A stretch of DNA of 64,000 nt from Flavivirga eckloniae (GTDB taxonomy: Bacteria; Bacteroidota; Bacteroidia; Flavobacteriales; Flavobacteriaceae). This document shows, piece by piece, positions 58,247 to 64,000 of this stretch (position 1 is the first letter of the stretch; each line of letters starts with the position of its first letter). Below the pieces are notes generated by a model. It worked only from the letters and a program-made list of their open reading frames with translations. It made no database searches and was not told the DNA's origin. The stretch covers positions 2,371,001 through 2,435,000 of the forward strand of contig NZ_CP025791.1 of the NCBI RefSeq assembly GCF_002886045.1. Direction: 5' to 3'. Position numbers and translations under genes: made by a program.

Positions 58247-58924
58247 TTAGGGATATTCAAAACCAAATTCAATCCTTTTAATTGTATTATCTGTGAAATA
58301 ATACTTTGCAGAATACATCGGCATATTATACTCTTTTAAAAAAGAATTGTTGAAGTCGTCTAAAACAAAAGACAATAATTTGTCTCCTTGTATAAGCTTA
58401 AAGTTCTCTGATAAATATTTGCTTTCTATGACCTCCTTTTTTACTCCAAGAGCTATACCATTGTTAGTCTTAAATATAGCTTCCGCGATTTTAAATACAT
58501 TTTCACCTTTAGGGATAGTAGCTCGATCAATTTGTTCTAAAATGAAATAGCTTACTTGATTTTTATTGCTTCCCGGATAAAATAGCAAAGTAAGCTTTTG
58601 CGTGTTGTCTTTATTTAAAATAATCAATTCAGGAAATTCACTTTTTCCATTTTCTATAAAAACTGGACTACTAATTACGTTTAAAAGACTTTTGCTATCT
58701 AAAAGATTTATTTTATTTATTGAAGTTTCAATAGCAAATTGTAACTCTTCGTTACCCTTCATTCGGTTGCTGATTTCAGTATCTTGCTTTTTATTTGTTA
58801 GCGTATCTTTAATATTGACTTTGCTTATATTATCAATACTAGCTTTTTCTTTGGTTTCAGTTTTACAAGAGAAACAAATAAGCATAATACATACTAATAA
58901 AAATTTAGTTTTAATTACCATCAT
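58247..58924 (-). CDS. Lipoprotein downstream of RHS locus B; candidate periplasmic immunity protein
   Basis: The 225-aa product has an SPII signal (LICFSCKTE, Cys20) and a Lys/Thr-rich linker. The compact alpha/beta domain (about 60-225) includes FAIETSINKINLLDSKSLLNVI and PELIILNKDNTQKLTLLFYP. I recognise no family. Its start overlaps the end of the RHS gene by 14 bp. The RHS tip next to it looks like a peptidoglycan-directed enzyme, so a periplasmic inhibitor is the natural hypothesis. A different lipoprotein function cannot be excluded. Confidence 0.7.
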   Translation of the reverse strand: MMVIKTKFLLVCIMLICFSCKTETKEKASIDNISKVNIKDTLTNKKQDTEISNRMKGNEELQFAIETSINKINLLDSKSLLNVISSPVFIENGKSEFPELIILNKDNTQKLTLLFYPGSNKNQVSYFILEQIDRATIPKGENVFKIAEAIFKTNNGIALGVKKEVIESKYLSENFKLIQGDKLLSFVLDDFNNSFLKEYNMPMYSAKYYFTDNTIKRIEFGFEYP

Positions 58925-61900
58925 TATTTGGATTGTTTGTAATATTAACGTTCACATTAATACTTGTATTATTACTTAAATAATTATTTACTCTTGTTCT
59001 AAAATCTCTTAATCCAGTAGCTCCACATGTTAAACCAATACAACCTAATGTCCCTGCTGTTCCTCCATCTGGATGAAACCTTAACAAATCTCTACTTGTA
59101 GTAAAAGTTGGATTTACATCAAAAGTAAAACCTACTCCATGATTCGCATAAGAGCCAGTTCTATTATCTCTTAAATTATTAGTAGTATAATCTCCATTTT
59201 CAAGTGAACCATTTCCCCAAGGACCTGATATAGCTGTCCAACTTTTATCTGTTAATGTTTTTCCATTTGCATATGAAGAAGTTAATGTTACATCTCCTGA
59301 AGCCCATTCTTTATTAGCATTACTTGGAAAAGTTTCCATTGAACCTGTAAAACTTAAAGACTTACTTGATAAAGCTGAAAATTCTTTAACAGGGGATTTA
59401 TTATTATCAACTGAAAAGAAAGTAGCTCCTTCAGTTCCCGCGCTATTATTACCCTGTATTGCACCACTAGCAACAGTACCTTCTTTAGCTGTCATAGAAA
59501 AACCTGTAATCCCTTCAGTGACAAACCCTTTCGTATTTATAACACCACGTGCCATACTATAATCGTATCCTGCCCAATTATAATTAGCTATTTGGTCTGA
59601 ATTCGGTGCTATATTATTACCATCAGCATTAACAGGCTGCCATTCTAAACCTTCTAATTCATTTCCATCAATAACTCTATTTTCTGCAAAATTATAAACA
59701 CCATTATATCTATAATCTTCCGCTAGGGGGTCTATTGAAATGAATCTACCAATAGCAGGGTCACTAAATCTATACTTCCATTCATGTAAATTTAAACCAA
59801 GTTCATCGTGCCACTCCTGACCTTGATAAGTTTTGTACTTGTATTCTACGCCATTTACAACATTATTATACCCTTTATGTTTAAGTCCAAAAGGATAGTA
59901 GTTGTTCTCCTCCAGTATTTCAGAAGAAGCTACGCTACCATTATCGTTACTATCTTTATAACTCAACCTTATATTTCCCAGATGATCTTTGTATTGATAT
60001 ACATAATCGAAACCTTGCGACAGATCAAATTGGTTTTTTGGCTCCAAATAACCTTCGGAATGGTTAAAGAATTTCAATATTGTATTGTTCCTTTGTGATT
60101 CGTATATATAGTTTCCAGCATATAAAGTAACAGTGCCACCGCCAGCAGTAGGCAGGTTAACTCTCTTGAGTATTTTTATACCTGTAGCGTCATAAGTATA
60201 ATCTATAGACCGTCCAAAACCAAAATCAACCTTGGTTGGTAGGTTTAAATGATTATATTCTATGCTGATAATTCCTTTATTAGTATCGGTTAACAAATTA
60301 CCATTCACATCATAAGTGTAATCATCAGAAATATCCGAAGCCTTATCTACAGCGTCATCCTTGAACCCGTACTTGTCCGTAGCTGCAGCATCAGATACTT
60401 TTAAAAGCTTGTTCGAATTGGTTTGGTAGGTATAGCTCAGTTGATCCATGGTTCCAAAATGGGTATTATTGCTTGCAACAGGGTTGTCAACTACATGACC
60501 CGTTCTGGTAAAGTTAGTAATATTTCCGTTCTTGTCATATAGAACGTTGATCAAATTATAATGTCCCGAATTATCCGTTGCATTAGTAATTCTATTCAGG
60601 GCGTCATATTGATAGTTATAGGTCTTTAGACTGGGATCCGTATTGGCGGTCCTCCACTGTGTCGAGCTTATGTTGCCATTATATAACGGATTAGCGCCCT
60701 CGTTATAGCCGATCTTAACCCCGAACAGATCATTGCCTAAAATAGCAGGATCGTTGATCTGTTTTAACCAGCCTCTTACATTATATGCATAGTTTACGGT
60801 TTGCAATCTGGTAGTACTAGATGATTTACCTCCAACGCCTTTTATTGTCAATTGTCCAAGATTGTTGTAAGTATTATCTACTATGGTCTCTTGACCCAGA
60901 TCATTAATGGTCTGCTTTTGCCTTAGTAACCTACCTTCATGGTCGTATACGAAAGTGTCTATGGCTGTAATGGTGGATTGACCTGTTTTAACATGTGTAG
61001 TTGTTGACTCTGTAACTTGTCCCGCAAAGTTTATTCGATTTTTAGCTTTGTCCGTTGTTTTTAAATAATCATTAAAACTATAGATATATATGGGTCTGGA
61101 CTTGTTATCGTAATAGGTTACCGTAGTGATCCATGTGTTCGATCCTAAAACTCTAACTTTACTCCCCGTTGTAAGCCCTTTTGCATTTGTAATTGGCGTT
61201 ATATCATATGAGGTCTCAGGGTTACCGGATACTTTGTCGAAAGTATAGTTGTCGTAGTAATTAATGGTTAAAATCTGCGAGCCTCTTGTTTGGTTATAAA
61301 TTGGGACCATATTATAGTACAATGTGGTTCCGTTATAAAGGATGCCCGTTTCTCTCTTGCTCACGGAAACACTACTGTTTTGGTCGGCATAAGCTTGCAC
61401 ATCTATATTTGTTGCGTCGGGAAGGGAACATTTTCCTTTATATGCCACTCTTCCAAAAGCATCGTAATATGTAAACAACCATTCCTCATTGGTTCTTTGG
61501 TTGGCATCTTGGGTCATTATCGGCCTATCCAATTTGTCATATATGATATACTCTTTGCCTTTGCCCGGAATTTTCTTTTCAACCAACCTATTCCTAAGAT
61601 CATATTTGTATTGATAACACAGTTCTGATAATTCTGTTAGGGATATTCCATCGGAGGTATCCACTTTAGGAGGAATAACATAGGTAAGGTTTCCAAAATC
61701 GTCATACACGTAATGGGTGTCATGAGGTATATTGGTTTGAGATACCCCATTGACCATTGAGGTAACATAGGTACGCTTTAAAACTACTTGTCCCTGTTTG
61801 TTCTTGAACTCTTCTGTAGTATGGGCCTTAGAGGATGTCCCATCATGGTTTTCGTCTTTGGTTATGGTTTTAAAGAGTGATCCTGCTGGATAGTTCGTGG

Positions 61901-62687
61901 TGCCTCCTGTTAATGTTGGAGCATAGATATTATTTGCAAAAATTAAGCTTACACCATATTGTTTAACTTCCGTTCCTGTATTGGTATTATAGCCAAACTC
62001 TATTTCTTTCCCTCCGCCTAGTTTCCAGTCCTTGCCAGGAGCTGCTTGTTTTAAGACCCGATTTAAAGGGGAAGCTTCCAGATTTTTTTGGGAATAGGCA
62101 TTGATGTCTGGAAGGGTCACTTCTGTAAAGTCATTGCTATAGTTGTCCTTATAGTACTGTTTCGTTGCTGTTGCCCTGTTCCCTCGGTATGCACCGACAC
62201 TGCCCGTTATTTCGTGGTAAGATAGCCAGTCCTTGTCCTGTCTGCCAAAGGCATCGTACTCTATATGGGTAATGATATCTTTTTTATCGGGAGCAGACTT
62301 GATACCGATGTTCTGTATCGGCCTGCCTATACCGTCGAAATAGGTGACTTGTTCTACAACATCGCCTTCCCTAGCAGTAGTTGCTTTAAAAGAAGTCATC
62401 GGGGCTTGGAAATTACGTGTAAATACATAGTTCTGATTACTGCCTAGTGAAACACCTGTATATGAGTCGGTTGTAGTGGTATGTTCGACTATTTCTGCCG
62501 TAAAAGTACTCCCGTTCTTGATCCATACATTTGGCTTTAGGATAATAGACTGTGTTGCTTTTAGCTCTACCTTACCAGAAGCTGCACTTATGGTGTAATC
62601 GCCTTTTTCTATAATCGTTTCTCGGGCTTGCGACAGGGCTGTTTGGGATATGAGTAACAGCAAAAGGATATAAATGTATTCTCTCAT
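58911..62687 (-). CDS. RHS/YD-repeat protein with an L,D-transpeptidase-like C-terminal tip (locus B)
   Basis: The 1258-aa product has a signal peptide (ends ALSQA, about residue 20) and a 3-coathanger-stack-like segment (GKVELKATQSIILKPNVWIK, about residues 36-55). A DUF6443-type start of RHS (VTYFDGIGRPIQNIGIK) and YD repeats follow, then an RHS core ending IGRFISIDPLAEDYRYNGVYN (about 985-1005). The last 230 aa have no Rhs character. They contain RFHPDGGTAGTLGCIGL with His1205 and Cys1216, similar to the His/Cys motifs of L,D-transpeptidase-like hydrolases (Tlde1/YkuD type). The core is closely related to locus A, but it lacks the Ig repeats and the jelly-roll insert. Confidence 0.85.
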   Translation of the reverse strand: MREYIYILLLLLISQTALSQARETIIEKGDYTISAASGKVELKATQSIILKPNVWIKNGSTFTAEIVEHTTTTDSYTGVSLGSNQNYVFTRNFQAPMTSFKATTAREGDVVEQVTYFDGIGRPIQNIGIKSAPDKKDIITHIEYDAFGRQDKDWLSYHEITGSVGAYRGNRATATKQYYKDNYSNDFTEVTLPDINAYSQKNLEASPLNRVLKQAAPGKDWKLGGGKEIEFGYNTNTGTEVKQYGVSLIFANNIYAPTLTGGTTNYPAGSLFKTITKDENHDGTSSKAHTTEEFKNKQGQVVLKRTYVTSMVNGVSQTNIPHDTHYVYDDFGNLTYVIPPKVDTSDGISLTELSELCYQYKYDLRNRLVEKKIPGKGKEYIIYDKLDRPIMTQDANQRTNEEWLFTYYDAFGRVAYKGKCSLPDATNIDVQAYADQNSSVSVSKRETGILYNGTTLYYNMVPIYNQTRGSQILTINYYDNYTFDKVSGNPETSYDITPITNAKGLTTGSKVRVLGSNTWITTVTYYDNKSRPIYIYSFNDYLKTTDKAKNRINFAGQVTESTTTHVKTGQSTITAIDTFVYDHEGRLLRQKQTINDLGQETIVDNTYNNLGQLTIKGVGGKSSSTTRLQTVNYAYNVRGWLKQINDPAILGNDLFGVKIGYNEGANPLYNGNISSTQWRTANTDPSLKTYNYQYDALNRITNATDNSGHYNLINVLYDKNGNITNFTRTGHVVDNPVASNNTHFGTMDQLSYTYQTNSNKLLKVSDAAATDKYGFKDDAVDKASDISDDYTYDVNGNLLTDTNKGIISIEYNHLNLPTKVDFGFGRSIDYTYDATGIKILKRVNLPTAGGGTVTLYAGNYIYESQRNNTILKFFNHSEGYLEPKNQFDLSQGFDYVYQYKDHLGNIRLSYKDSNDNGSVASSEILEENNYYPFGLKHKGYNNVVNGVEYKYKTYQGQEWHDELGLNLHEWKYRFSDPAIGRFISIDPLAEDYRYNGVYNFAENRVIDGNELEGLEWQPVNADGNNIAPNSDQIANYNWAGYDYSMARGVINTKGFVTEGITGFSMTAKEGTVASGAIQGNNSAGTEGATFFSVDNNKSPVKEFSALSSKSLSFTGSMETFPSNANKEWASGDVTLTSSYANGKTLTDKSWTAISGPWGNGSLENGDYTTNNLRDNRTGSYANHGVGFTFDVNPTFTTSRDLLRFHPDGGTAGTLGCIGLTCGATGLRDFRTRVNNYLSNNTSINVNVNITNNPNNDGN

Positions 62688-62692
62688 GGGGC

Positions 62693-64000
62693 TTAGTTTT
62701 TATAGTTATACTTGTTCTCACTCATTAGATTACCGTCGGCATCTTTTACAAACTCGAGGCGATTAAATTCATCATAATCATAGTATGTGGTATAACCCTT
62801 GGAATCCGTCAAACTGGTAACGCCTATTAACGGATCGTAGGTATAAGTAGTGACCATGGCATTTGGTAACGAATTTCTAAGATTTCTAAGAGCTTCTCTT
62901 AAACTACCCTCTTTTCCAACTTTAGTAATTAATCCATTGGAATTAATAATATCAACGGTTCTATCATCATCAGCATTACTTAATGTTTGTAAATTAGAAA
63001 TAATTGAAGTACTTATAGCACTATAGTGTACACCATCTAGCTTTGCAATAGGATATTCACCTTTATAACCCCAGATATAGCATGTAGGGGCACCATTGGT
63101 CCTCTTAACTTCTAATATTTTACCCGTATTATTGTACTTTACAAATTCTATTCTATCTTCTAGATCATTGGTTCCCTTGCCTGTTTTTACAGACTTAGGT
63201 AGAATAACATTGTCCCAATTATTAAATACATTTGCCTTAGTAGTTAATAGGACATCATTCTTAAAGGTCTCTTGTTTGATTACAGGACTCAATATATTCT
63301 GTTCAACCATTTTATTATAGACTAAACTAGGAATACCTACACCTGTAGGCTTATCTGAAGGATATGAATTTAAAGTCTTTAATACTTCTCCCTTACTGTT
63401 GGTGGTATTAATTTCAGTTGGCAGTTTGTGTATTTCACTATGATAAATGTAATTTGTAACATTAGCTACAGGGTTATTACCGTTTACATCATAAATAGTA
63501 CCTTTTTCTTTGTCTAAATGCCACCATTCGGATCTGATATGGTAAGGTGCATAACCTATATAAGAAGAAGGAATATGATCTAGACTATTAGGAGGATTTA
63601 ATAAATCTCTGAAATAACCTATGTCTAAAATACCTACTTCTATGCTGATTTTAGATTGTTCTCTTTGAGAATATTTAAAACTTTTTTCTGAAACAAGCTT
63701 ACCGAGACTATTATAATGCTTTTCTTTTAATAATTGACCATTGCTATAAGGAGCAAAATACGGTACTCCTGAAAGATAAACTTCTTCCCTAACTACCGAA
63801 GGTTTATTATTATAAAAATATTCAGAAAAAAAGCTAGAACCTTCAACAGTACCTGTATGTGTAACTTTTACCTTGGAATAGCCTACAGGATTCCCTTGAG
63901 CAGAACTCCCCATAGCAACAACACTACCAGAAGTCCTAACAAGATAATTTTTACTAATTGTTATTGGCGGTAAATTAAGGGTGTTATACAATCTATAATT
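62693..64000 (-). CDS. YD-repeat secreted protein, partial (upstream partner of locus B)
   Basis: At least 432 aa are visible; the gene continues past the right end. It is homologous to the C-terminal part of the 1156-aa protein at 8724 (TCYIWGYKGEYPIAKLDG; ATHTS/YSAIST; LPNAMVTTYTYDPLIGVTS; YDEFNRLEFVKDADG). The first in-window ATG (63991) is probably not the start. The gene ends 5 bp before the RHS gene of locus B, the same order and spacing as in locus A. Confidence 0.8.
   Translation of the reverse strand, partial: NYRLYNTLNLPPITISKNYLVRTSGSVVAMGSSAQGNPVGYSKVKVTHTGTVEGSSFFSEYFYNNKPSVVREEVYLSGVPYFAPYSNGQLLKEKHYNSLGKLVSEKSFKYSQREQSKISIEVGILDIGYFRDLLNPPNSLDHIPSSYIGYAPYHIRSEWWHLDKEKGTIYDVNGNNPVANVTNYIYHSEIHKLPTEINTTNSKGEVLKTLNSYPSDKPTGVGIPSLVYNKMVEQNILSPVIKQETFKNDVLLTTKANVFNNWDNVILPKSVKTGKGTNDLEDRIEFVKYNNTGKILEVKRTNGAPTCYIWGYKGEYPIAKLDGVHYSAISTSIISNLQTLSNADDDRTVDIINSNGLITKVGKEGSLREALRNLRNSLPNAMVTTYTYDPLIGVTSLTDSKGYTTYYDYDEFNRLEFVKDADGNLMSENKYNYKN

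Follow-up and report, generated by a model that had tools for sequence, protein, structure and literature searches.

Organization of the RHS locus

The genome of Flavivirga eckloniae is a single contig of 5.67 Mb. The window, that is, the whole stretch of 64,000 nucleotides analysed here, carries close to its end three genes on the minus strand, the first of which lies in the window with its 3' part:

62693..64000, minus strand: 3' part of the upstream gene, which encodes a protein of 1161 aa and lies mostly beyond the window (whole gene L090:94-3579)
58911..62687, minus strand: putative RHS polymorphic toxin, 1258 aa, assigned from a signal peptide read by eye and from profile matches
59367..59588, minus strand: aa 1034-1107 of the RHS protein, from the core end to the modelled domain (boundaries cut by us)
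58914..59366, minus strand: aa 1108-1258 of the RHS protein, predicted catalytic tip domain as modelled (AlphaFold, structural match, residue conservation)
58247..58924, minus strand: candidate immunity lipoprotein, 225 aa, lipobox Cys20, overlapping the toxin gene by 14 bp

The last two genes and their 14-bp overlap are as an earlier note on this DNA had described them. The RHS protein consists of a signal peptide, a DUF6443 domain (aa 90-235), an RHS repeat, an RHS core (aa 930-1006) and a variable tip. Its N-terminus was recognised by eye as a Sec-type signal peptide, and profiles match DUF6443 (E 1.5e-41), RHS_repeat (7.2e-7) and, at residues 930-1006, Rhs_assc_core (33.4 bits vs. a cut-off of 32.5). 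This is the RHS-repeat and core architecture with a variable C-terminal tip that is found in polymorphic toxins. DUF6443 is matched five times in the genome, and BLASTP alignments with the other four RHS proteins end at residues 1022, 1017, 1015 and 1138. The last of these (L097) reaches 31 residues into the modelled domain and stops short of the part that holds the putative active-site histidine and cysteine. The tip had been called unrelated to that of another RHS locus (locus A), and indeed the alignment with locus A stops at residue 1022 and leaves the tip unmatched. Between the core end and the modelled domain, aa 1034-1107 are little conserved when Aquimarina-type and Flavobacterium tips are aligned. 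The RHS protein was matched by none of the PDB chains, and PADLOC returned no match.

The 1161-aa upstream protein has a signal peptide (by eye) and an RHS-like end, and a similar open reading frame (ORF) directly precedes the RHS gene in L008, L010 and L023. In a PDB search its matches were confined to designed or WD-repeat propellers. Judged from gene order, it is possibly an RHS companion, with which the RHS protein could form a two-protein shell like that of Tc toxins. Two further DUF6443 RHS loci of the same genome (L095:1098-6375 and L096:1928-6331) carry, by eye, a HELTH tip followed by a 267-aa lipobox ORF and an NCSTF tip followed by a 125-aa lipobox ORF.

The tip and its lipoprotein partner

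Including the window, we found ten related tips in nine genomes, each paired with a homologous lipoprotein. They occur in Aquimarina pacifica (L008), Flavobacterium limi (L009), F. chilense (L010) and five other genomes of the order, one of which has two in tandem. Counting the window genome each time, tips were found in 1 of 12 genomes of the genus, 2 of 299 of the family (a search in which the window tip was the only query), 7 of 395 of the order and 5 of 395 of the phylum. Among the phylum matches, G722/L021 (E 0.004) was rejected, being a large unrelated ORF that lacks the motif. Next to an eleventh, distant tip (L027) stands an unrelated protein whose N-terminus is signal-like.

The earlier note had proposed that the downstream gene encodes a lipoprotein, which is borne out by the lipobox ICFSC, whose Cys20 is invariant in all ten homologues. 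A homologue lies directly downstream of every one of the ten tips, with a spacing of -56 to +3 bp, and the two diverge together: the distances of toxins and lipoproteins are correlated at 0.82 over the ten pairs (permutation p 5e-5). The corresponding values are 0.32 (p 0.036) for toxin and shell and 0.49 (p 0.005) for lipoprotein and shell, the shells of the short cassettes being partial. Within one genome, the members of the L025 tandem pair are 94% identical in their shells, 34% in their tips and 30% in their lipoproteins; L009 and L010 share 88% of the tip and 55% of the shell. An exception is L024 vs. L026, where the tips are 72% but the lipoproteins 31% identical. On the whole, this correlated divergence of tip and lipoprotein on different shells is as predicted for polymorphic toxins whose immunity proteins are specific.

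Does the lipoprotein also occur on its own? A strong match (over 45 bits) is present in at least 10 of the 395 genomes of the order, seven with a tip and three without; up to seven candidates per genome were scored, so that some may be missed. Among the scored candidates, the other 97 of the 107 genomes with lipoprotein matches reach at most 24.8 bits. The lipoprotein was not found widely apart from the tips; wide occurrence without them would have spoken against the pairing. In G571, G654 and G346 no tip was found either in the genome or beside the lipoprotein, whose tip-less homologues lie at L060:3145-3825, L061:6410-7066 and L062:17-1045. These lone lipoproteins, in three of the ten genomes, are possible orphan immunity genes. 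None of the Pfam immunity families was matched by the ten lipoproteins, and a PDB sequence search gave weak matches (best 0.029). A match of one of the ten to PF09635 (23.1 bits, cut-off 24.8) was taken as chance.

The earlier note had also read the lipoprotein neighbour as a clue to a wall-directed toxin. The lipoprotein is there, but its value as a clue is reduced, because in a census covering the order the gene after an RHS tip is lipoprotein-like in 13 of 33 loci (the corresponding figures are 8 of 46 for window ORFs and 11 of 62 for ORFs at other loci), and such a neighbour is thus not specific to wall toxins. The census followed crude rules of our own and covered 50 loci (the 30 best-scoring and 20 picked by frame length), of which 15 had no recognised RHS ORF and two no next ORF, leaving 33 to be classed.

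Short RHS cassettes and the question of a self-directed role

Arrays of short cassettes, each an RHS core plus a tip, are seen at L022:2-11000, L024:219-5195 and L025:4528-12501, with varied predicted enzymes (HExxH, by eye; M74-like; VanY), most of them followed by a lipoprotein or signal-peptide gene (by eye). Some of these array tips look wall-directed: one protein matches both VanY and M15_4 (1.1e-10 and 3.3e-14), and another has a weak match to M74 (0.0012, under the cut-off). A different tip at L024:219-1160, with the pattern H...SSEGC and no relevant Pfam match, is followed by a lipoprotein-like ORF and is perhaps a second L,D-transpeptidase-like toxin. In a genome of the phylum, an RHS-type tip at L029:913-1869 matches Tlde1_dom weakly (3.9e-4) with the motif IHGG..GSRGCID; the stretch examined there holds no downstream ORF of 80 aa or more on the same strand.

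Export signals, read by eye, are carried by both proteins of the window pair, as would also be expected if the RHS protein served its own cell, its tip remodelling the producer's wall and the lipoprotein acting as cofactor or regulator. We consider this improbable. Similar tips with their lipoprotein sit on different shells, short tip-lipoprotein cassettes stand in arrays beside other enzyme tips, tips occur patchily (in 7 of 395 genomes), and lone lipoproteins in three of ten genomes fit orphan immunity genes. A toxin-immunity pair aimed at rival cells remains our preferred reading.

Predicted fold of the tip

An AlphaFold model of aa 1108-1258 (pLDDT 89.6, pTM 0.86) has structural matches of the L,D-transpeptidase (YkuD) fold, most of them titled as peptidoglycan enzymes, and this fold is accordingly predicted for the tip, in line with the YkuD/Tlde1-type fold proposed earlier. 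A previous model built from 4 sequences was poor (pLDDT 37.2), and Foldseek against the PDB alone gave nothing at E <= 0.001 (best 0.88, unrelated).

For the window tip, Pfam and NCBIfam hold no relevant match. Among the 11 tips, YkuD (PF03734) matches only the distant L027, at 20.1 bits and below the cut-off of 23.4, and Tlde1_dom (PF10908) matches two (best E 4.4e-4); the window tip is matched by neither. The whole L025b protein scores 20.3 bits against Tlde1_dom, for which the cut-off is 30.1. The family touched by most tips is DUF2141 (4 of 11, best E 0.016). Comparison with E. coli LdtA/B/C/E by hhalign gave 2% and 1%, vs. 1.2% for an unrelated control, with a template of only 4 close sequences. 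PDB sequence searches of the tip yielded nothing usable (a tail sheath protein at E 0.28, and designed beta-trefoils matched over a short motif), and no YkuD match was found in the host genome.

Predicted active-site residues

The tip reads FHPDGGTAGTLGCIGL, with His1205 and Cys1216, and thus contains the pattern of type H...GTLGCIGL that had been pointed out in it. Arg1199, His1205, Gly1215 and Cys1216 are invariant across the 11 RHS tips, which were collected by whole-domain searches. Alignment A10 comprises 25 rows, 12 from RHS tips (L029 included) and 13 from phages; it leaves out the repeat-contig rows L072, L073, L079, L084, L085, L088 and L089, the identical proteins L074, L078 and L081, and L076, a near copy of L075. 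Patterns containing parts of the motif served to find the phage rows, whose agreement in it therefore weighs less. The histidine, glycine and cysteine are kept in all 25 rows, with Thr or Ser three positions before the cysteine, so that every row has the putative catalytic histidine and an (S/T)xGC cysteine. An arginine six positions before the histidine is present in 23 rows, the window included. Two positions before the cysteine stands L, Q, A, E, D or R and never His. From the fold match and the motif, His1205 and Cys1216 are predicted to lie in one pocket.

Relatives in phages

YkuD-like proteins or fused domains were found in phages (L064-L069, L071 and L075-L086 of the viral_contigs set), L086 being kept despite its short match of 20 residues. 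Two other short matches were dropped: L070 lacks the GC motif, and no ORF was obtained for L087. The phage relatives belong to the sequence family of the tips (hhalign 99.6%; motif HPDG..GT.GCIG), and one of them, L067, scores above the YkuD PF03734 cut-off. Unlike the RHS-borne tips, they are small stand-alone proteins or parts of baseplate-type or lysozyme proteins. On viral contigs, the tip domain is fused to a phage lysozyme or occurs with a baseplate injector OB domain (L069:1464-3464, L068:3452-4552), which suggests phage tail proteins armed with an enzyme of the L,D-transpeptidase fold. In a tree of the 25 rows, the two fused phage domains fall among the RHS tips. Firm support is confined to 4 of the 22 inner branches, all of them elsewhere in the tree, and long rows meet, so that we claim no direction of transfer.

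A first viral scan, with patterns of alignment A3 that leave the active site outside, found nothing, and in the phage records no match was obtained with the L068, L069 and L067 domains as queries. Plasmid records held no match for the window tip or the L024 tip, and the latter was unmatched in the phage records too. PMC9144972 lists a DUF2778 (Tlde1-type) protein of a phage.

Could the fold be kept while the substrate is something other than peptidoglycan? That no direct profile match links the tip to canonical L,D-transpeptidases would agree with this, but most structural matches are titled peptidoglycan enzymes and two of the phage relatives are combined with a baseplate or a lysozyme domain, and we hold another substrate to be quite unlikely. 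Peptidoglycan stays the probable target.

Comparison with known systems

YkuD L,D-transpeptidases, carboxypeptidases and DpaA have GCIR where the tip has GCIG, and the tip, unlike them, is RHS-borne. Counted on the alignment, the spacing from His to Cys is 11 in the window tip and 16 in E. coli LdtA, and by sequence the tip is connected to YkuD enzymes only by way of distant tips and phage proteins. DpaA detaches Lpp from the wall. It is possible, if doubtful, that the YkuD-fold tip likewise hydrolyses, as an endopeptidase or amidase, and kills by cutting cross-links or envelope tethers. Our preferred reading has it act on the stem peptide, as set out below.

Zhang et al. 2012 (PMC3482391) predicted RHS toxins with L,D-peptidase tips in several phyla, bacteroidetes among them, and the kind of toxin is therefore already known. 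In the portion of that paper available, the partners of Tox-LD-peptidase are Imm16 or Imm57, some immunity proteins are secreted or membrane proteins, and only Imm65, the partner of Tox-JAB-1, is given as a lipoprotein. The window tip fits the description of Tox-LD-peptidase as a tip with a predicted L,D-peptidase fold on an RHS protein, next to a linked candidate immunity gene, and shares its conserved H, S and C (PMC3482391, same portion). It differs in that the lipoprotein partners have no Pfam Imm match, a comparison made with the descriptions in that portion. A search of open-licence PMC found no paper on the tip family, the lipoprotein family or the phage relation. Both families are unnamed in the libraries searched.

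The tip was considered earlier not to be a member of the Tlde1 family of T6SS effectors. Our results agree: the window tip has no match over the PF10908 cut-off, is carried by an RHS protein and has a lipoprotein partner, and the (S/T)HGC motif of Tlde1 is absent, there being no His two before the Cys in any of the 25 rows. VipB (PF05943), one T6SS component, had no match in the host genome, while the E. coli control was positive. In another Bacteroidetes toxin class about 87% have Sec signals, according to Jana et al. 2020 (PMC7073777). For Tlde1a (PDB 7uma), PMC9638812 reports that the D-amino acid is held by R115, which lies six positions before H121, that H129A, a change two positions before C131, reduces trimming and cross-linking and leaves D-amino-acid exchange intact, and that every tested variant except D40A lost toxicity. 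An arginine at the spacing of R115, matched by spacing only, is found in 23 of our 25 rows. If the Tlde1a positions correspond, the tip would retain the exchange pocket and lack an equivalent of H129.

Proposed mechanism and implications

We consider it likely that the locus encodes an antibacterial polymorphic toxin-immunity pair, in which an RHS shell carries a YkuD-fold tip that attacks the peptidoglycan of rivals and a lipoprotein blocks the tip. It draws on computed evidence: tip and lipoprotein recur as a pair and diverge together, similar tips are found on different shells, a YkuD fold is predicted, and the His and Cys are conserved. The exported RHS protein would be a shell carrying the C-terminal enzyme, with Cys1216 and His1205 as its active site. 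Once delivered to the periplasm of a rival, the tip would attack the bond between residues three and four of the stem peptide, either trimming the peptide as an L,D-carboxypeptidase or swapping D-Ala4 for another D-amino acid, or both. The altered stem peptides would spoil wall maintenance and so make the protein toxic, and the lipoprotein in the producer's own envelope would bind and block the tip.

More speculatively, and rather unlikely as a whole, RHS warheads and phage baseplate-type proteins may share one mobile wall-editing module, an enzyme of the L,D-transpeptidase fold borne by some phages on an OB-domain protein or next to lysozyme. It would have been traded with Bacteroidota RHS toxins, would be accompanied there by a dedicated lipoprotein immunity family and may favour D-amino-acid exchange. 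A preference for exchange is conceivable because the second His is absent and the exchange-pocket Arg is kept, and exchange survives H129A in Tlde1a (PMC9638812). Exchange alone may not kill, since the tested Tlde1a variants other than D40A are reported to lose toxicity (same paper).

Our analysis gives the tip and the lipoprotein a testable function. It suggests that secreted RHS toxins of Bacteroidota are armed by one branch of the L,D-transpeptidase fold, which escapes the Pfam cut-offs and is shared with phages. Two activities that go together in Tlde1a would be separated in this enzyme, should it favour exchange over trimming. In the lipoprotein family, moreover, the L,D-transpeptidase fold has a candidate natural inhibitor.
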